A stretch of DNA of 33,687 nucleotides, taken from assembly GCA_945906965.1 (NCBI GenBank), contig CAMDRP010000023.1:1-33687 (forward strand). Reading direction: 5' to 3'. The notes beneath the pieces are model-generated. The model had not been told where the DNA came from, made no database searches, and saw only the letters and a program-made list of their open reading frames with translations. Every line of letters starts with the position of its first letter. Position 1 is the first letter of the stretch. This DNA comes from Opitutus sp. GAS368. GTDB taxonomy: Bacteria; Verrucomicrobiota; Verrucomicrobiia; Opitutales; Opitutaceae. The position numbers and the translations under genes are program-made. Below, piece after piece: positions 210 through 13,962 of this stretch.

Positions 210-773
210 ATGAAAAAAATCGCCTCGCTCGTCCTCGCCTTCGCCGCGCTCGTCGTCGGCTCGCTTCCCCTCGCCGCCCAACAAAAACGCACCAGCCCGC
301 ACGAGAGCATTTACACGCGTTACGGCACGCGCCCCAACGTCACCCTCGTCTCCATCACCTACGGTCGGCCATTTTCCAAAGACCCCAAAACCGGCGAACT
401 GCGCAAAATTTGGGGCGGCCTCGTCGCCTGGGGCAAAGCCGATCGCCTCGGCGCCGACGAAGCCACCTTACTGCTCACGCAAAAAGCCCTCGTCTTTGGC
501 GAAACCACCGTTCCCGCCGGCGCCTACACGCTTTATCTCGTCCCCTCCGAGACCGGCGCCACCCAACTCGCGATCAGCACCAACATCGGCAAATGGGGCG
601 TCCCCGTGGACGAGAAAAACGACCTCGCCCGAGTGCCCCTGACCAAAGGCGCCCTCGAAACCTCCGTCGACCAACTCACGCTCGCCCTCGACAAAAACCC
701 TGACGACACCGGCACCCTCAAAATCATGTGGGAAAAAACCGTCTACTCCGTCGGCTTCAGTGTGAAGAAATAG
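210..773 (+). CDS. DUF2911 domain-containing secreted protein
   Basis: This 187-residue protein starts at an ATG followed by a Sec signal peptide (basic MKKIA, hydrophobic segment to about residue 22, then PLAAQQ), so the mature protein is probably periplasmic or exported. The mature part shows the hallmarks of DUF2911: an early SITYGRPFSKDP segment (strand plus conserved YGRP), KIWGGLVAWGKADRLGADEAT in the middle, then TVPAGAYTLYLVPSETG and NIGKWG. The family is common in Bacteroidota and Verrucomicrobiota, and its function is unknown. Length matches the family. No Shine-Dalgarno sequence precedes the start. It is 90 bp from the upstream fragment and is followed by repeat copy A, so it probably stands alone or ends an operon. 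Confidence 0.9.
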   Translation: MKKIASLVLAFAALVVGSLPLAAQQKRTSPHESIYTRYGTRPNVTLVSITYGRPFSKDPKTGELRKIWGGLVAWGKADRLGADEATLLLTQKALVFGETTVPAGAYTLYLVPSETGATQLAISTNIGKWGVPVDEKNDLARVPLTKGALETSVDQLTLALDKNPDDTGTLKIMWEKTVYSVGFSVKK

Positions 774-814: not shown

Positions 815-943
815 ACAAGGTTAGTGACGTATATCGACACTAACCTCGTTGTTCAAATTGCGCTATTAAATGCGACAGGCGAAAAAAGCGCGCCAAATTA
901 CCACGGCGATATCAACCGTCTGGCAGGGGTAAAACTTTGTTTT
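815..943. repeat. Direct repeat copy A (left flank of toxin-antitoxin island)
   Basis: This 129-bp element aligns with 1670-1799 at about 88% identity (16 differences including one gap, by hand). It starts at ACAAGGTTAGTG and ends at ACTTTGTTTT. Its left part forms a perfect hairpin with 9-bp arms AGGTTAGTG (818-826) and CACTAACCT (838-846) around an 11-nt loop. It lies 41 bp after the DUF2911 gene. No reading frame is conserved between the copies, so it looks like a non-coding repeat. Confidence 0.85.
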
Positions 944-1022
944 ATGACTAACTGCTTCAAACAGTCCGCACTGGCCGTGGCATTAGCCAGCCCCTTCCCC
1001 CTGGCTCCCCCAACCCGGTTGC

Positions 1023-1087
1023 TTTAAAATAGGAAAACTTCCAATACTTTAAAATCATGGGTCTTGAAAAACGTATTGCTTTTCAAG
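1023..1087 (+). promoter_or_regulatory. Candidate promoter/operator region of the toxin-antitoxin module
   Basis: The stretch holds an AT-rich octamer TTTAAAAT twice (1023-1030 and 1048-1055, 25 bp apart), a small inverted repeat GGAA-AAC-TTCC between them, and a perfect 8-bp inverted repeat CTTGAAAA (1063-1070) / TTTTCAAG (1080-1087) just before the toxin frame. Type II antitoxins usually bind palindromes in their own promoter, so this is the natural autoregulatory site. Assignment to promoter elements is inference; no clean -35/-10 pair stands out. Confidence 0.4.
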
Positions 1088-1392
1088 CAAAAAGGGGCCC
1101 TTTGTATTTCGTGACCTTCGAATGGGAGCCCCAGAAAAACACGGCTAATATAGCCAAGCACGCCGTTGCATTTTGACTAGCGGAAAAAGCCTTCGAAGAT
1201 TCAAAGGCTGTGGTTGCCTTCGACCAAGATCACAGTGGGCCTATAGAGCTACGTTGGTGGCTGTTAGGCAAAGTAAAGGGTCGGGTAATGTTGGTTCGAT
1301 ACACTCACAGGCCTAATGGACGCATCCGAATTATCGGTGCTGGATACTGGCGGGCCGGAAAAGAAATTTATGAAAAAGCACAACAAGTCTGA
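1057..1392 (+). pseudogene. brnT: BrnT-family ribonuclease toxin, interrupted by an in-frame TGA
   Basis: The frame reads VTFEWEPQKNTANIAKHAVAF, then TGA at 1174-1176, then continues without shift as LAEKAFEDSKAVVAF...RVMLVRYTHRPNGRIRIIGAGYW to a TGA at 1390-1392. This matches BrnT toxins (FEWDxxKAxxNxxKHGVxF-xxAxxVFxD ... VxxTxRxxxxRIISARxA), which act as RNA-cleaving type II toxins. Family members normally start just before the FEW motif, suggesting GTG 1111; an in-frame ATG at 1057 would add 18 residues. The premature stop comes after 21 codons from GTG 1111 and removes the first strands and helix, so the product should be inactive unless the stop is read through. The 3' end overlaps the antitoxin start by 23 bp, the usual toxin-first order of brnTA. 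Base composition is AT-richer than the neighbours, suggesting acquisition. Confidence 0.75.
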
Positions 1393-1651
1393 AGCTCCTG
1401 TATTCGACGCGGAAGGGTATCAGCTCAACATAGCGGATCTCAATGGTGAGGCCCTTCCTGAGCCGGATAAAGTCGGTTTCAAGCCATTGGCTCATGGTGG
1501 GGCCAGGCAAGGTGCAGGCCGTAAAAACAAGGGCAGAAAACCGCTTCTTCTTCGGTTGAGTCCCAAAATAATCGCTCGGTTAAAAGCGAAAGCGAAGGCC
1601 ACTCACAAATCAGTTTCTGATGTAGCTGAAGAATCGCTCTCAGTGGGTTGA
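1370..1651 (+). CDS. Antitoxin of the BrnT-type module (ribbon-helix-helix-like DNA-binding protein)
   Basis: The ORF is intact and encodes 93 residues from ATG 1370 (MKKHNKSE). An in-frame ATG at 1316 exists but lies deep inside the toxin frame and adds a stretch with no family character. The C-terminal half has the basic HGGARQGAGRKNKGRKP linker followed by a strand-helix-helix pattern (LLLRLSPKIIARLKAKAKATHKSVSDVAEESL), typical of small ribbon-helix-helix repressors and antitoxins. Its N-terminal segment would be the toxin-binding part. It overlaps the toxin gene by 23 bp, which implies translational coupling, and is followed 18 bp later by repeat copy B. It is not a textbook BrnA sequence, so the family call rests on position and fold pattern. 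A weak purine stretch (GGAAAAGAA) precedes the start. Confidence 0.7.
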   Translation: MKKHNKSEAPVFDAEGYQLNIADLNGEALPEPDKVGFKPLAHGGARQGAGRKNKGRKPLLLRLSPKIIARLKAKAKATHKSVSDVAEESLSVG

Positions 1652-1669
1652 GCAAAGAGGTAGCGAACG

Positions 1670-1799
1670 ACAAGGTTAGTGACGTAAATCGACACTTAAC
1701 CTCGTCATTCAAATTCCGATATGCAATGTGACAGGCGAAAAAAGCGCACAAAATTACCACGGCGATACCAACCGTCCGGTTGGGGCAAAACTTTGTTTT
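1670..1799. repeat. Direct repeat copy B (right flank of toxin-antitoxin island)
   Basis: This is the second copy of the repeat at 815-943, same orientation, 855 bp downstream. The hairpin is kept with one bulged base: AGGTTAGTG (1673-1681) against CACTTAACCT (1693-1702). The best conserved blocks are GACAGGCGAAAAAAGCGC and AAATTACCACGGCGAT. It starts 18 bp after the antitoxin stop codon. The pattern gene-repeat-gene-repeat resembles a cassette unit, but I see no convincing integron attC core sites. Confidence 0.85.
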
Positions 1800-2069: not shown

Positions 2070-3311
2070 ATGATCGACTCTGCCGACCTCCTCGCGCGTT
2101 TCCTCCGCTACGTCCAGATCGACACACGCAGCGATGCCTCCAGCCCGACGACGCCGAGCACTCCCGGCCAATGGACGCTCCTGCGCTTACTCGAAACCGA
2201 ACTTCGCACGCTTGACGCGAGCGATGTCACACTCACGCCGGCCGGTTTCCTCCTCGCCACGCTTCCCGCCACCGTCGCCCATCCCGTGCCCGTCGTCGCG
2301 TGGTGCGCCCACGTCGATACCGCCACCAATCTCCCCGGCGCCGCCCGGCCGCTCGTCCATCGCGCCTACGCCGGCCAACCCATTGTGTTGCCCGATGATC
2401 CCACACAGACGCTCACGCTCGAAAATTCCCCGCGCCTGCGCACCGCGCTCGGCCACGATGTCATCACGGCCAGCGGTAAAACCCTCCTCGGCGCCGACGA
2501 CAAAGCGGGCGTCGCCGTGATCCTCGCGACCGCGCGCCATCTGTTGCTCCATCCCGCAATCCCCCACGGGAAAATCCGCCTCTGCTTCAGCCCCGACGAA
2601 GAAATCGCCACCGGTATGAACCACCTCGACCTTGCCCAACTCGGCGCGGAGGCCGCTTACACGCTCGACGGCGAATCGCCCGGCGAGATCGACGACGAGA
2701 CCTTCAACGCCGACGCCGCCACGCTCGAAATTCACGGCGTCGCCTCGCATCCCGGCTGGGCGAAGGACGTCATGGTCAACGCGCTTCGCCTCGCCGCGCG
2801 CTGGCTCGACGCCCTGCCCACCGAACTCTCGCCCGAACGCACCACGGGCCGCGCGGGCTTCATTCATCTCGTCGAAGTCACCGGCACCGCCGAACTCGCC
2901 ACAGTGCGCCTCATCCTCCGTGACTTTGAACTCTCCGGCCTCGCCGCCCATCGCGCCCTCCTCGCAAAACTCACCGCCGAACTCCGCGCCGCCGAACCCC
3001 GCGCTCGCTGCGTCCTCACGTTTACCGAGCAATACCGCAACCTCCGCTACGGCCTCGAAAAAGATCCGCGTCCCCTCGTCCACGCCCGCACCGCCCTGCG
3101 TCGAGCCGGCCTTACGCCCGTCTCGAATCCCATCCGTGGCGGCACCGATGGTTCCAATCTCACCGCCCGCGGCCTGCCCACGCCCAATCTGTTTGTCGGC
3201 ATGCACGAGGTCCACAGCCCTCGCGAATGGGTCAGCCTCCAAGACATGGAAAAATCCGCCGAAGTCCTCGTCCACCTCGCGCAAGTCTGGGCTGAGTGCA
3301 CCGCGAATTGA
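2070..3311 (+). CDS. pepT: Peptidase T (tripeptide aminopeptidase, M20B)
   Basis: This 413-residue cytoplasmic metallopeptidase removes the N-terminal residue from tripeptides. Length and motifs match PepT closely: the first zinc site AHVDT (H81, D83), the bridging aspartate in LLGADDKAGVAV (D143/D144), the catalytic glutamates in FSPDEEIATG (E177/E178), the zinc aspartate in YTLDGE (D200), NPIRGGTDGSNL, and the C-terminal zinc histidine in VGMHEVHSPREW (H379). The dimerisation (lid) domain lies between about residues 205 and 320, with HPGWAKDVMVNA typical of PepT. There is no signal peptide. The gene stands alone on the plus strand, convergent with the minus-strand DUF1501 gene 48 bp away. 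No Shine-Dalgarno sequence precedes ATG 2070. Confidence 0.93.
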   Translation: MIDSADLLARFLRYVQIDTRSDASSPTTPSTPGQWTLLRLLETELRTLDASDVTLTPAGFLLATLPATVAHPVPVVAWCAHVDTATNLPGAARPLVHRAYAGQPIVLPDDPTQTLTLENSPRLRTALGHDVITASGKTLLGADDKAGVAVILATARHLLLHPAIPHGKIRLCFSPDEEIATGMNHLDLAQLGAEAAYTLDGESPGEIDDETFNADAATLEIHGVASHPGWAKDVMVNALRLAARWLDALPTELSPERTTGRAGFIHLVEVTGTAELATVRLILRDFELSGLAAHRALLAKLTAELRAAEPRARCVLTFTEQYRNLRYGLEKDPRPLVHARTALRRAGLTPVSNPIRGGTDGSNLTARGLPTPNLFVGMHEVHSPREWVSLQDMEKSAEVLVHLAQVWAECTAN

Positions 3312-3359: not shown

Positions 3360-4829
3360 TCACGCCAAAATCTCGCGCACGACGCGCGCGGGCTCGACGC
3401 CGGTGAGACGTTGGTCGAGGCCCTGGGCTTTAAATGAGAACTTGGCGTGATCGACGCCGAGACAGTGGAGCAGCGTGGCGTTGAGATCGTGGAGACTCAC
3501 GGGATCGCGCACGATGTTGTAGGAAAAATCGTCGGTCTCGCCGTGGACGACGCCGCCCTTCACGCCACCGCCCGCGGCCCACACGCTGAAGCAACGCGGG
3601 TGATGATCGCGGCCGTAGTTGGTCTGCGTGAGCGTGCCCTGCGAATAAACCGTGCGGCCAAATTCGCCGGCCCAGACGACGAGCGTGTCGTCGAGCAAGC
3701 CGCGTTGCTTGAGATCAGTAACGAGCGCGTAGCAGGCTTGATCGGTGTCGAGACACTGGAGGCGATGATCGCCGGGCAAGTTGCCGTGCTGATCCCAGCC
3801 GCGATGGAGGATTTGCACGACGCGCACGTTGCGCTCGGCCATGCGGCGCGCGAGCAAGCAACTCGCGGCAAACGAACCGGGCGTCTTCACATCGGGCCCG
3901 TAGAGATCGAGCGTCGCGGGCGATTCGTCAGCGAAGTTGGTGAGATCGGGCACGCTCGTCTGCATGCGAAACGCCATCTCGTATTGTGCAATGCGGTTGA
4001 GCGTCTCGGGATCGCCGTGGCGGGCCTGCGCGTGGTGGTTGAACTTGGCGAGGCCATCGAGCATCGCGCGGCGCGTGGTGGCATCAACGCCGTTAGGGTT
4101 TTCCAAGAACAGGACCGGATCGCCCTGCGCGCGCAGCGCGACGCCGTTGTGCCCGCCGGGGAGAAATCCGCTGCTCCACATTCTAGTGAACAACGCCTGC
4201 GCGGAGACCTTGGAAGAAAATTTCGGTGTGAGTACGACAAAGGCCGGCAAGTCGTTGTTCTCGCTGCCGAGGCCGTAGGAGATCCACGAGCCGATGCTGG
4301 CTTTGCCGGGGATTTCGCTGCCGGTCATGAGAAACGTGCAGGCCGGATCGTGGTTGATGGCGTTGGTATGGACGGAGCGCACGATAGCGATGTCGTCCGC
4401 GAGCTTCGCGGTCCAAGGGAGCAAATCGCTGACCCACGCGCCGCTGCGGCCGTGTTGCGCGAATTTAAAAATCGAAGGCGCGACGGGAAACTTGGCCTGC
4501 CCGCTCGTCATCGTTGTGATGCGTTGGCCGGCGCGAATCGAGTCGGGCAGCTCGACATTGAACTGCGACTGGAGGCCGGGCTTGTAGTCAAACGTGTCGA
4601 GCTGCGAAGGCCCGCCGTTCATGTGCAGGTAAATGACGCGCTTCGCCTTAGGCGCGAAATGCGGCAAGCCCGGCAACGCGGGATGAATACGCGCGCCGGC
4701 CTTCGCCGTGACGGCGCCGCGCAAGCGGGGCGCGAGCAAGTTGAGGGCGACGCCACCCATGGCGAGACCAGCGCCCGCGAAAAATTGTCGGCGCGTGAGT
4801 TGGTTCAAGTAATCGTGGCAAGGATTCAT
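3360..4829 (-). CDS. DUF1501 domain-containing protein (Tat-exported, sulfatase-fold family)
   Basis: This 489-residue protein begins with a twin-arginine signal ([22 protein letters not shown], residues 11-32), so it is exported folded. Diagnostic DUF1501 motifs are [18 protein letters not shown] (68-84), [29 protein letters not shown], and near the C terminus [15 protein letters not shown] with [21 protein letters not shown]. The family adopts an alkaline-phosphatase/sulfatase-like fold but its activity is not established. It follows the PSCyt/PSD1 gene with a gap of 7 bp, the pairing seen throughout Planctomycetota and Verrucomicrobiota, so the two proteins very probably act together. It is the last gene of the minus-strand run. 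Confidence 0.95.
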
Positions 4830-9298: not shown

Positions 9299-10111
9299 TC
9301 AACGCGACGCTACGAGCGCGCCGATGAAATTATCGGCTTCAAACACAAAACCAAATTCGAGCGCGACGCGCCACAAGGCCTGTTGCTTCTCGCGTTCGTC
9401 GCGCGCCGTCTCGCAATTTTCCACGGCTGTGACCGCTTCACGAATGGTCGAACACATCACGCCATAACGCTTCATATCCACCATGCCGCCGGGTGACATG
9501 AGCAGGCACCAGTTGATCGCGAAGCCCACGTACACGAGGTGATTCACGCTATGCGCACGGCACAAGGCCGCCAGTTGCGGACCGTTCTCCGCGATGCCTT
9601 CCTCGCCCAGCGGCCGCGCGGCCGGCGCAAAATCGAGCTGCGCGAAACCAGCCTCAACGTCGGGTCGATTGTGCGGGCCGACAAAAACGTTTTCCGCGCG
9701 AAACGCCTCCAATCGTTCGTAAGCCGGATCTTTCGGGATCGGTGTCAGCGCGGTCGTCGGTCCCGCCAAACGTGCCGCCCGCTGATATCCCGGCAGGTGC
9801 GAATAATAATCCCGCCCGCCGACCACATGAAACACGGGCAATGACGACGCGCGCACCGCCGCCAACAGCGGCGGGAACACCTCGGCCAAGATTTTCAAGG
9901 CGCGCGGATGGTATTCGACGGCGCGACGCCAGCCCGGCCATTGCGCCATCGTGCCCGCTTCCCAAGCGTGCATTACGACGAGAGCGGTGTGTTGCGATGC
10001 GATTTCAACCTCACAGCTTTGCCAACCGCCAAAGTTTTCCGCGGGCACTTCGCGTCCGTAATCGGCGTCGAATTGCTGGTAGGTATGGGCGCGTAGGCGA
10101 ATGGGTTTCAT
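9299..10111 (-). CDS. Cysteine hydrolase / isochorismatase-like protein with atypical active site
   Basis: From ATG 10111 the protein has 270 residues. The start overlaps the symporter stop as ATGA, which fixes it and implies translational coupling. The Rossmann-like pattern of the isochorismatase-like hydrolases is visible: first strand TALVVMHAWEAG (42-53), VFHVVGGRDYYSHLPG (93-108), then HLVYVGFAINWCLLMSPGGMVDMKRYG (191-217) with nucleophile C202 in place of the usual ATNxCV. The catalytic aspartate that normally follows the first strand (hhDhQ) is absent; the position reads VMHAW, with H48. The enzyme may therefore use a different triad or act on another amide or ester. Large insertions between strands (about 105-185) exceed the family norm. 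The neighbours suggest a role in processing an imported compound. Confidence 0.75.
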   Translation of the reverse strand: MKPIRLRAHTYQQFDADYGREVPAENFGGWQSCEVEIASQHTALVVMHAWEAGTMAQWPGWRRAVEYHPRALKILAEVFPPLLAAVRASSLPVFHVVGGRDYYSHLPGYQRAARLAGPTTALTPIPKDPAYERLEAFRAENVFVGPHNRPDVEAGFAQLDFAPAARPLGEEGIAENGPQLAALCRAHSVNHLVYVGFAINWCLLMSPGGMVDMKRYGVMCSTIREAVTAVENCETARDEREKQQALWRVALEFGFVFEADNFIGALVASR

Positions 10112-11868
10112 CGGCGCGGGCGTGAGATTACCCACAAAATTCCAGCGATAATAAACAACAAAAATCCGGCGATAGCATTGATCATCGGCGGCGCCAACGG
10201 CGACGACGGCAAAAGCGCACAGACGCACAAGACCACGGCCAACAACGCACAGACACCGGCTAGCATTTGGAAGTCGCGCAGGCCACCGCTCGGCGCGGCG
10301 GCATCGGCCGGCACGGGGGTACGCAGGTCGACGTCGAGCTTCTGCGCTTCGGCGCTACGAGGATCATCGGAGCGGTAATAAAACGCCGAGATCACAAACA
10401 CCAACACCGCGGCCGACGAGGCGCTCAGCATGTTGCGTTCGTAAGCATGTCCCGGCCACAGGTCCAAGGCCATGCAACCAAACGCCGCGATAAACGCCGC
10501 CGAACACGAAGCCATGCCCGACCACCAAGGCGTTTTTCGATAAATCATTCCCAATAACACCGGCATCATAAAACCCGGACCGGTCATAGAGTAATATTTG
10601 AGCCCAAAATCAAAAGCTCCACCCGTCCGTGCGATGAACATCGCCGCGACGATGCCGAGTACGCCGATCACGAGCATCGTGAGTTGCGCGACGTGCATCT
10701 GATGTTTATCCGTCGGCACCGTCAGACCGAGGCGACGGCGCAGCGGTACGTAAATGTCGCGCGTCGTCGTAGCCGCGAGCCAGTTGAACCCGTCACTCGC
10801 TTGCCCAAGCGTTGCAGAGAGAATCGCGGCCACCACAAACCCGATCATACCGTGCGGCAGCAACAGCATCGCGAGACTCACAAACGCCGTTTCCTCGGGC
10901 GCCTTCACTCCCGGCCACATGGCGGCGAGATCGGGGAAAATCACGCGCGCACCCATCACCGGGACGATCCACAACAACGGCCCCACGACGGAAAGCCCCG
11001 CGCAAAGGAGCGCCATTTTACGTGCTCCTTTTTCATCGGGCACGCTCTGGTAACGCTGCACCTGCCACCAAGCGACGTTGTAGCCAAGGAGCACGTTGAT
11101 CGCGTAGCTAAACAAAAACCACGGCTGCGCCGCCTGCCCTTGCACGGTGAGCATCTCCGCCGGCACATCTTGAACCATCTTGGCCAAACCTGCGCCGATC
11201 CCTTCGCCACCGCCGAGGTAGCGAAAGGTCACTGGAAAAATCAGCACCGAGGTCACTAGAATGATCACGCCTTGCACCGCGTCGCTCAACACCGCGGCCC
11301 AAAGTCCGCCGATCACCGTGTACAAAATCATCACGACTCCGACGGTGAGCATCGTGAGTTCGAGTCCGCTGAATTCAAACCCGAGGACCAAATGCGCTTC
11401 CTTGGAAAACCCCAGTGCCGTGGCGACGAAGATACAGAGCACATAAAGTCCCTGCCCGATGCCGATGATCTGAGGCACGATCGCCGTCACGGTGTAAAAA
11501 TACGTCGTCGACGGTGAAAAGCGTCGCGTCAGAAATTCCAGCGGCGAGTTGATTCGCGCCCGCCGCCAGCGGCCGGCGAAATACCAAGCGCCGATAAGAT
11601 AAGCCCACGCGGCCGACGTAAATATCACGGCCGCCCCGATCCCATTTTTATAAGTAAAACCAGCCGCCGCAACGAACATGAAGGCCGAGAAACCCGAAAC
11701 CCAGTTGGAAACACCCGCGAGAAACCACGGGATTTTTCCTCCACCTTTGAAGTAATCGTCCGTGTTTTGATTTTTACGCGCCGAGTACCAACCGACAAAA
11801 ATCACGATCCCAAAATAGAGTGCGATGAGCGCGTAGTCGTAGGCGTTGACGATATTGAGATGAAGCAT
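10108..11868 (-). CDS. Sodium:solute symporter family (SSS/SGLT-type) transporter
   Basis: This 586-residue inner-membrane protein shows about 13 hydrophobic segments and the SSS hallmarks: YFGIVIFVGWYSARKNQNTDDYFKGGGKIPWFLAGVSNWVSGFSAFMFVAAAGFTY (18-73), AWYFAGRWRRARINSPLEFLTRRF, and VMILYTVIGGLWAAVLSDAVQGVIIL. Members import sugars, sialic acid, amino acids or carboxylates using the Na+ gradient. Position between the heparinase-like genes and a hydrolase suggests import of the lyase products (inference). It starts 12 bp after the upstream heparinase-family stop and overlaps the next gene by 4 bp. The last two helices (about 520-580) follow a hydrophilic linker rich in Asp, Pro and Ala. Confidence 0.92.
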   Translation of the reverse strand: MLHLNIVNAYDYALIALYFGIVIFVGWYSARKNQNTDDYFKGGGKIPWFLAGVSNWVSGFSAFMFVAAAGFTYKNGIGAAVIFTSAAWAYLIGAWYFAGRWRRARINSPLEFLTRRFSPSTTYFYTVTAIVPQIIGIGQGLYVLCIFVATALGFSKEAHLVLGFEFSGLELTMLTVGVVMILYTVIGGLWAAVLSDAVQGVIILVTSVLIFPVTFRYLGGGEGIGAGLAKMVQDVPAEMLTVQGQAAQPWFLFSYAINVLLGYNVAWWQVQRYQSVPDEKGARKMALLCAGLSVVGPLLWIVPVMGARVIFPDLAAMWPGVKAPEETAFVSLAMLLLPHGMIGFVVAAILSATLGQASDGFNWLAATTTRDIYVPLRRRLGLTVPTDKHQMHVAQLTMLVIGVLGIVAAMFIARTGGAFDFGLKYYSMTGPGFMMPVLLGMIYRKTPWWSGMASCSAAFIAAFGCMALDLWPGHAYERNMLSASSAAVLVFVISAFYYRSDDPRSAEAQKLDVDLRTPVPADAAAPSGGLRDFQMLAGVCALLAVVLCVCALLPSSPLAPPMINAIAGFLLFIIAGILWVISRPRR

Positions 11869-11880
11869 CGCGTTGAAATT

Positions 11881-13962
11881 TTAGAGAGTGAGCACGGGCA
11901 CGTCAGTCGTAGTGACGAGCGTTACTTTGATCGAACGGCCTAAGTGCGTTCCGCTCACCCGCCAACCCTTTGATGTGCGTTCGGTCACGAGAGCGCCCGG
12001 CGATGAACCCGTCGGAGCGGCAGCGCTGACGGTGATAAATTCATGGTCGAGCGCGGCTGCACTTTCGACTTCGCCGAAGGGATGTACGCCCTCGGCCTCG
12101 GGCAACTCCAAGTTACCCGCGCGCACCGAGAGGTTGCCCACCCCGCTGACGGTCGCAGTGAGTCGGGCACCCGGCCGCTGCGTCGTAAACGAACGATCAT
12201 TCGCTACGACTCGACCTTGATCGTCGTCATTGAACGCTTGGAACCGCGCCTGCACGGGCAGCGGTGCTCCGGCGAGCTTCACGCGGTCGAGCACGAGCAG
12301 CACATCGGGTTTTAGGAAAACGAGCGTGCGCACAACGCGACGCACCTGCGGCAACACGAGTTGATAAGCCTCGGTCGCGTCGCTGGTGACGCTCATCCAG
12401 TTCGGACCGGTACGAAAATCGCGGACGTGCGCCCACGCCCAAGATGCGTTCGTGCCTTCGTGGCCGTCGTGATATTGATGACCCTTGCCGCCGATCAGCA
12501 GCGCGGAGTGAGCTTCGGTTTGCCGGAGCAACCAACGCGGATGATTCGGAATGTACGCCGCCTTGAACGGATCGTGAAAGAGGCGTTCGCCGTAGGCTTT
12601 AAAAAGGACGCTGTTGCGGTCCGCGTGTTCGTGATTGGCCGGACCGCCGCTGCGAAACGCCACCACACTGTCTGCGACCGCCCAGCCCGTGCGCGAAATC
12701 ACCAGGCCGTTGGTCAGATTTACGTCCAATAATTCCGGCCCCGGCGCAGCGAGCGCGGCATCGGGCCGGAACCACACGGCGGCCGGCCACAATTCCAAAC
12801 TCCCGATCGTGCGCGCCACCTGATCCGACAACGGATCCGCGTGCACCCGACCGATCCACGAAGCGATAGACGTGTCGATCGCGGTTCCCGAATCGCCGAA
12901 ATTCACCAAGCCCTTGGCCGGATCGATTTCGCCCTTCGGCACCGCGGTGTATTCCTTTTTCTCCTTTGGATTCACGTAAACCGCGCCCGCCGTGGGCATC
13001 GCGAGACTGAGCGCATAACGCACGGTGCCGCGGTAATTGATCAGGCTGCGCTGATCGATCCCCAGTCGGCGGTATTGCGCCTCGGCGAACAAAATCAGGT
13101 GCAACGTCGTGTAACCCCAATAGCCCGCGCCTTCATCGAAACTGCCGTCGCTGCCGTACATCGTCGCAAAGGACTGCGCGCTCTGTTGCGCCAATTCGAG
13201 CCAACGCGCCGCATCGGGGTGACGGCCTTGCAGACAAATCGCCGCGAGGCCGAGCGCGCACGTGGGGATGATTTTGAGATTCGTGGCGTTGAGAATCAGC
13301 GGCCAACGCGAGAGATCCATTTTCCCTGGGAATTTTTCCGCCGGGTCCATCGACCAGCCGCGCACGCGATCCGGGTACTTCATACCGTAGAGAGAGAGAA
13401 AACACGCAGGGGCACCTTTAGTCGCGATCTGTTCTTCCATCGCGGCGCGCTCAGCGGCACTCAATTCCGCGCCCAGCCAGTCGAGGGCGAGGCAAAACGC
13501 GATGGTCGTCTCCGGCGCACGTTGCAAGCCTATGACCTGCGTGCCGCCCTCGAGAAAATAATCCCACGCCGCGTACGCGCCCAGCCGTTGAATCGCCAAG
13601 CGCGCGAGGGCGAGTTCGCGTTTTTCACCCGTGAGCGCATAGACCAACGCGGCGTGCTCGAGAATGCCGCGCGCCTTGGCTTGATCCATGATGTGATCGG
13701 TAAGCTTGATCTCATCGCGCAAAAACAATTCTTCGGCGGCGAGATCACGGCCAAAAAGCTTGGCGCGCAACGTCGCGAAACGCGGCAGTTCCAGATTCGC
13801 ACGGATGCGCGGTATATCCGCGTGGTCAAAAAATAAACCGCTCATCAATGCGGGCGCCGCCGCTGGGACCGGCGTTGCCGCCACGGTGGAATTCGCCCGA
13901 TTAAGCGCGCAGACACCGGCGAGTGCGGTGGCGGTTTTAAGAAAAGAACGACGCGTGGACAT
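11881..13962 (-). CDS. Heparinase II/III-family protein 1 (Tat-exported polysaccharide-lyase-like)
   Basis: This 693-residue protein has a twin-arginine signal (STRRSFLKTATALAGVCAL, 2-20). The N-terminal two-thirds form the expected alpha-toroid region (GLFFDHADIPRIRAN at 42-56; NATNLKIIPT at 225-234; MYGSDGSFDEGAGYWGYTTL at 268-287). The C-terminal beta-sandwich carries the family signature PANHEHADRNSVLFKAYGERLFHDPF (441-466) and LLRQTEAHSALLIGGKGHQYHDG. Asn/His/Tyr residues at such places are catalytic in characterised heparinase II, III and alginate lyases; candidates here are N228, Y281/Y284 and H444/H446. The members cleave uronic-acid polymers by beta-elimination, but the substrate is not predictable. 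It is a close paralog of the next protein upstream, with a 13-bp gap between the genes. Confidence 0.88.
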   Translation of the reverse strand: MSTRRSFLKTATALAGVCALNRANSTVAATPVPAAAPALMSGLFFDHADIPRIRANLELPRFATLRAKLFGRDLAAEELFLRDEIKLTDHIMDQAKARGILEHAALVYALTGEKRELALARLAIQRLGAYAAWDYFLEGGTQVIGLQRAPETTIAFCLALDWLGAELSAAERAAMEEQIATKGAPACFLSLYGMKYPDRVRGWSMDPAEKFPGKMDLSRWPLILNATNLKIIPTCALGLAAICLQGRHPDAARWLELAQQSAQSFATMYGSDGSFDEGAGYWGYTTLHLILFAEAQYRRLGIDQRSLINYRGTVRYALSLAMPTAGAVYVNPKEKKEYTAVPKGEIDPAKGLVNFGDSGTAIDTSIASWIGRVHADPLSDQVARTIGSLELWPAAVWFRPDAALAAPGPELLDVNLTNGLVISRTGWAVADSVVAFRSGGPANHEHADRNSVLFKAYGERLFHDPFKAAYIPNHPRWLLRQTEAHSALLIGGKGHQYHDGHEGTNASWAWAHVRDFRTGPNWMSVTSDATEAYQLVLPQVRRVVRTLVFLKPDVLLVLDRVKLAGAPLPVQARFQAFNDDDQGRVVANDRSFTTQRPGARLTATVSGVGNLSVRAGNLELPEAEGVHPFGEVESAAALDHEFITVSAAAPTGSSPGALVTERTSKGWRVSGTHLGRSIKVTLVTTTDVPVLTL

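Follow-up and report, generated by a model that had tools for sequence, protein, structure and literature searches.

We found that the gap between a DUF2911 gene and an M20 peptidase gene in Opitutus sp. GAS368 probably holds a decaying, horizontally exchanged BrnTA-type toxin-antitoxin module, flanked by two diverged palindrome-headed repeats, and that this gap between core genes is insertion-prone and shaped by ordinary recombination. Filled, single-repeat and repeat-free alleles of the gap exist among close relatives, and the histories of the two flanks differ. A recombinase-driven cassette is possible; nothing requires one. The locus lies in the window, i.e. the whole stretch of 33,687 nucleotides of contig CAMDRP010000023.1 that was analysed.

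The DUF2911 gene (210-773, forward strand; PF11138, E 2.5e-29) forms the left conserved flank and the M20 peptidase gene (2070-3311, forward strand; PF01546, E 4.4e-14) the right one. The G+C profile and the alleles in relatives mark an AT-rich, insertion-prone region between them (unstranded, approximate limits 780-2020). G+C content was 44-53% over about 800-2000 and 59-70% outside, in agreement with the AT-richer island described in a sequence-only reading of this DNA. That reading had placed a single toxin-antitoxin unit between two direct repeats of about 130 bp headed by the same hairpin, and this layout was confirmed. Repeat A (815-943, 129 bp) and repeat B (1670-1799, 130 bp), both on the forward strand, were recovered in a search of the own genome as direct repeats with 88% identity (E = 6e-40). 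One BrnT/BrnA-type pair is bracketed by them, and repeat B follows the antitoxin stop after 18 bp, as had been described (stop at 1651, repeat B from 1670). The hairpin arms AGGTTAGTG/CACTAACCT were found at the head of both repeats, with one extra T in copy B. The hairpin extends to an imperfect, unstranded palindrome of ~45 bp, CGAATGACGAGGTTAGTGACG-N5-CGTCACTAACCTCGTCATTCG, located at about 810-854 in repeat A (core arms at 819-829 and 835-845, 5 bp apart, conserved in other genera) and, with a one-base bulge, at about 1665-1710 in repeat B. Similarity between the copies weakly continues beyond 943 and 1799, with an alignment score of 44 against a mean of 17 and a largest value of 40 for shuffled sequences. 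In the congeners G236 and G227 similarity to the window begins right at the first codon of DUF2911 (210) and does not extend into 1-209, which means that Opitutus sp. GAS368 has another upstream neighbour there. A G+C-rich, GTAG-headed hairpin at about 1975-2001 was rejected as a REP family, being a single copy in 434 kb.

Between the repeats, a brnT-like toxin gene (1111-1392, forward strand) starts with GTG at 1111 and is followed by an antitoxin gene in the brnA position (1370-1651, forward strand) with an open frame of 93 aa. Translation and comparison with G236 revealed an in-frame TGA at 1174-1176 in brnT, and the toxin is therefore broken. The BrnT domain (PF04365) was recognized behind the stop with 41.7 bits (Pfam cut-off 34.5, E 1.5e-10), and BrnT of G236 gave 63 bits to the same domain. 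For the antitoxin a weak ribbon-helix-helix signal was obtained, with RHH_1 (E 0.018) and DUF6364 (E 0.0034) both below the Pfam cut-off, and no above-cut-off match was found in NCBIfam. Its frame is also open in G236, with 7 nonsynonymous and 5 synonymous differences. The pair resembles BrnT/BrnA type II systems in that the toxin gene overlaps the downstream antitoxin gene and matches the BrnT domain, but differs in its stop-broken toxin and in the weakness of the ribbon-helix-helix signal. In G236, brnT runs into sequence that recurs at the ends of several contigs of the own genome and is probably a mobile element. Together, the stop codon and the disrupted brnT of G236 show that the module is decaying. 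The multi-copy sequence was located at own-genome contig ends (L004-L008) and, after the truncated brnT, at 3211-3359 of L019 in G236. A 17-bp match, CATCNCAAGGTTAGTG, at own-genome contig ends was set aside because it belongs to an unrelated multi-copy element.

The sequence-only reading had proposed a repeat family that captures toxin-antitoxin genes, and had suggested a search for further copies. There was no third copy of the 130-bp repeat in the own assembly (3.26 Mb, 97% complete). Among 252 family genomes the repeat was present only in two congeners, G236 and G227, in both cases in this same DUF2911-M20 gap. Orthologues of repeat B were found in both of them. No case was found of the 130-bp repeat bracketing other genes, and the whole island gave no match in plasmid and phage collections. 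The proposal was supported in part: the hairpin has relatives elsewhere in Opitutaceae, but the 130-bp repeat forms no dispersed cassette family. The repeat body is confined to one locus in three species and has no other own-genome copies, which would also suit a single tandem duplication of 130 bp of intergenic DNA, with brnTA landing between the two copies by accident. We consider that account very improbable, because the palindrome is scattered over other genera, where bases on both sides of it are shared as well.

The gap itself was found to vary among the relatives. Of the 13 genus genomes searched, 11 had a match to DUF2911 and 12 to the M20 peptidase. G236 carries a filled allele, spread over two contigs and consisting of repeat A (with 5 differences), the genes and repeat B. 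G227 has exactly one repeat (L021), with the left flank of A, the right flank of B and no genes, which is the empty site that the sequence-only reading had proposed to look for in relatives. G232, although about 95-96% identical in its flanking genes, is repeat-free, with an ordinary terminator and 274 bp between these genes, and G225 and G233 have a repeat-free gap of about 90 bp, likewise with an ordinary terminator. A different gene pair, of which the first gene is DUF433, occupies the gap in G228 and G229. These filled, single-repeat, repeat-free and DUF433 alleles indicate that accessory genes enter and leave the gap, in which small gene pairs seem to have landed repeatedly. The DUF433 gene and the second small gene lie at 3030-3750 of L050 (G229) and at 527-1238 of L051 (G228).

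The two flanks gave conflicting groupings. In the left flank (DUF2911) the window's genome groups with G236 (12 differences in 605 bp, compared to 21 and 26 with G227), and in the right flank G236 groups with G227 (47 differences in 1521 bp, compared to 107 and 109 with the window's genome). From this conflict we infer that alleles were exchanged by homologous recombination through the flanks, and for that reason parsimony cannot separate gain from loss in G227. According to the preferred reading, alleles would move between strains by homologous recombination through the conserved flanks, and homologous recombination or slippage between the direct repeats would remove the module and leave one repeat, a process for which no dedicated recombinase would be required. 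The G227 allele supports this reading in being the product expected from recombination between A and B, and such a recombination is the most likely cause of module loss in G227. Copies A and B of G236 have a patch in common, GCGCTGTTAAATGCG, that is different in G227 and in the window's copy B, which suggests gene conversion between the two copies in G236.

The switch from A-type to B-type sequence in G227 lies inside 17 bp that are identical in A and B, in the left palindrome arm (815-831). This position fits a site-specific event, and it fits homologous recombination equally well because the tract is among the three longest identical tracts of the A/B pair. That a site-specific event at 815-831 would look alike counts against the preferred reading, although a switch within 17 of 129 bp is not improbable. 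The preferred reading also leaves the origin of the second repeat copy unaccounted for.

Besides the window's locus, the palindrome was found at five further places (G227:C440, G044:C6, G048:C12, G038:C195 and G148:C267) when searched for by patterns with mismatches and a reversed-pattern control. This amounts to six palindrome loci in four Opitutaceae genera (g1, g14, g16 and g35), and most relatives lack it. Pairing of the arms is maintained by compensatory changes: counted from the centre, A-T is replaced by T-A at step five and by C-G at step seventeen. Sequence outside the stem is shared as well (G038 and G044 are 85% identical over 67 bp, E 1e-13), and an independent origin is therefore unlikely. 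The 5-bp centre is fixed in length and differs in sequence between A and B and between loci, and four TGACG-like half-sites are arranged in a fixed layout. Beyond the window's locus the palindromes were single, with no bracketing pair found. Pattern matches in G104 (inside coding sequence) and in G078 and G148:C217 (flanking bases missing) were not counted as members. A scan of GTDB contigs with the palindrome core gave matches outside Opitutaceae that had no flanking CTCGTCATTC bases and mostly resembled chance matches in coding sequence. Only sub-threshold chance matches, in phages, were obtained in the search against phages and plasmids, and viral contigs gave chance matches or none. Some frames through the palindrome are open (MTRLVT...), but they are interrupted by stops in copy B, in G227 and in G048, and coding sequence is not favoured.

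Accessory genes, among them defence genes, adjoin the palindrome at several loci. It adjoins BrnTA in the window's genome and in G236, a DUF4143 protein (ATPase) at G227:C440, BilBCD in G048, and, in G044, Wadjet JetD accompanied by a WYL protein and by a large gene upstream. In G038 a methyltransferase operon with LexA lies on one side and a KAP NTPase on the other. In G044 and G048 a tRNA-Glu immediately precedes the palindrome, a position at which the remaining genomes of that genus have different sequence. Accessory genes are common beside tRNAs; for this reason, and because the loci are few, the link to defence genes is suggestive only. Palindromes beside defence genes in other genera show that the element is more than a local duplication, which counts against the preferred reading. 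Two further repeats were observed. In G038 (L195) a 79-nt direct repeat at 677-755 and 4497-4575, 75% identical, flanks the KAP NTPase segment; its frame ends ...HESHCAKE/G, and one of the copies is some 50 bp away from the palindrome. In G047:C9 (L136, L146 and L124) three copies of the tRNA-Glu 3' end are tens of kilobases apart, probably as stacked integrated islands.

The palindrome may be a recombination site, a protein-binding site or a transcript-end structure. The preferred reading would make it a rare Opitutaceae palindromic element near accessory genes, perhaps a protein-binding or transcript-end element. It stands behind gene 3' ends at most loci (DUF2911, brnA, BilD, WYL, tRNA-Glu and DUF4143), and this, with the compensated pairing and the fixed layout of the half-sites, would suit a conserved binding site or transcript-end structure that is carried by accessory genes and doubled around brnTA only incidentally. 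We regard that account as rather unlikely, since no T-run follows the palindrome as in a standard terminator, Rfam gave no match, and most relatives lack the element. The palindrome was rejected as an intrinsic terminator also in the terminator scan, which picked other stems.

Alternatively, a recombinase of the tyrosine or another type, with its gene elsewhere, could use the palindrome as its core site, so that repeat A and brnTA (855 bp) would form a mobile unit, mobilized in trans and inserted at a single ancestral repeat as in G227. The exact one-repeat empty site, the G227 junction inside the left arm, and the fixed centre length with arms conserved at six loci in four genera are consistent with this, as are the copies beside BilBCD, Wadjet, methyltransferase and DUF4143 genes. 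A tRNA is a usual integration target, and two of the copies directly follow tRNA-Glu. The own genome contains four tyrosine recombinase (PF00589) genes, two of them Xer-like and two phage-type integrases. However, no transposase or recombinase gene was found nearby, as the sequence-only reading had noted, and no bracketing pair of palindromes was found elsewhere. Tyrosine recombinase sites normally need matching spacers, and the centres of A and B differ, as do those of the other loci. For the pdif sites of Acinetobacter matching spacers have been reported (PMC13141974). Taken together, we think such a cassette unlikely. It is more doubtful still that Opitutaceae possess an undescribed system which recombines at the ~45-bp palindrome and would insert and remove toxin-antitoxin genes and defence genes, acting in trans and with no integron-type sites.

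The locus was also compared to known element types. The longest attC sites are ~130 bp, like the repeats here, and integron cassettes and CALINs share the gene-repeat-gene-repeat order. Integrons are known in Verrucomicrobiota (PMC8618304). However, no RYYYAAC...GTTRRRY core-site pair was found over either repeat, in keeping with the sequence-only reading; the only pair in 780-1830 lies at 1423-1561, inside brnA. The bottom-strand folding that the reading had proposed as a check for attC-like structure gave a local hairpin of ~40 nt only, the remainder folding differently in A and B. In addition, none of the four PF00589 genes of the own genome (97% complete) passed the IntI cut-offs (TIGR02249). 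An integron cassette or CALIN remnant is hence hardly credible. The pdif (dif) modules of Acinetobacter are small and often consist of toxin-antitoxin pairs between short recombination sites, and the pdif sites, 28 bp long and inversely oriented, consist of distinct halves for XerC and XerD around a 6-bp spacer (PMC13141974). A small toxin-antitoxin module is bracketed here as well, but by long repeats in direct orientation, headed by a symmetric palindrome of ~45 bp with a 5-bp centre. REP-type and other small palindromic intergenic repeats are similar in being short intergenic palindromes, often at gene 3' ends, but differ from the present element, which occurs in one or two copies in few genomes rather than in hundreds, has no GTAG head and has no established RAYT link. 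Islands with tRNA-anchored attL/attR sites likewise have direct repeats around accessory genes, and the palindromes of G044 and G048 stand behind tRNA-Glu, but the repeats of the window are not tRNA-derived and have no integrase between them. An insertion sequence or MITE was rejected, as there are two direct copies at one locus and no target duplication was seen in comparison to G232.

Another array was observed in the own genome at 9560-13520 of G000:C7 (L204), where a tRNA-Ser(CGA) is followed by three accessory segments with no integrase beside them. The segments contain HigB and an HTH gene, ParE and an Unstab_antitox addiction-module protein on the other strand, and a DUF4143 ATPase. Each is closed by a direct repeat of ~50-60 bp ending like the tRNA 3' end (CTCCGCCA), of which a fourth copy lies behind DUF4143 in G227 (L197:977). 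This array is closer to the cassette idea of the sequence-only reading than the DUF2911-M20 locus is.

If the DUF2911-M20 locus is ordinary, it is a clean example of small toxin-antitoxin genes coming and going between core genes via flanking repeats. Should the palindrome prove to be a recombination site, it would represent a new route of defence-gene shuffling in Verrucomicrobiota and give a sequence handle for finding such genes.
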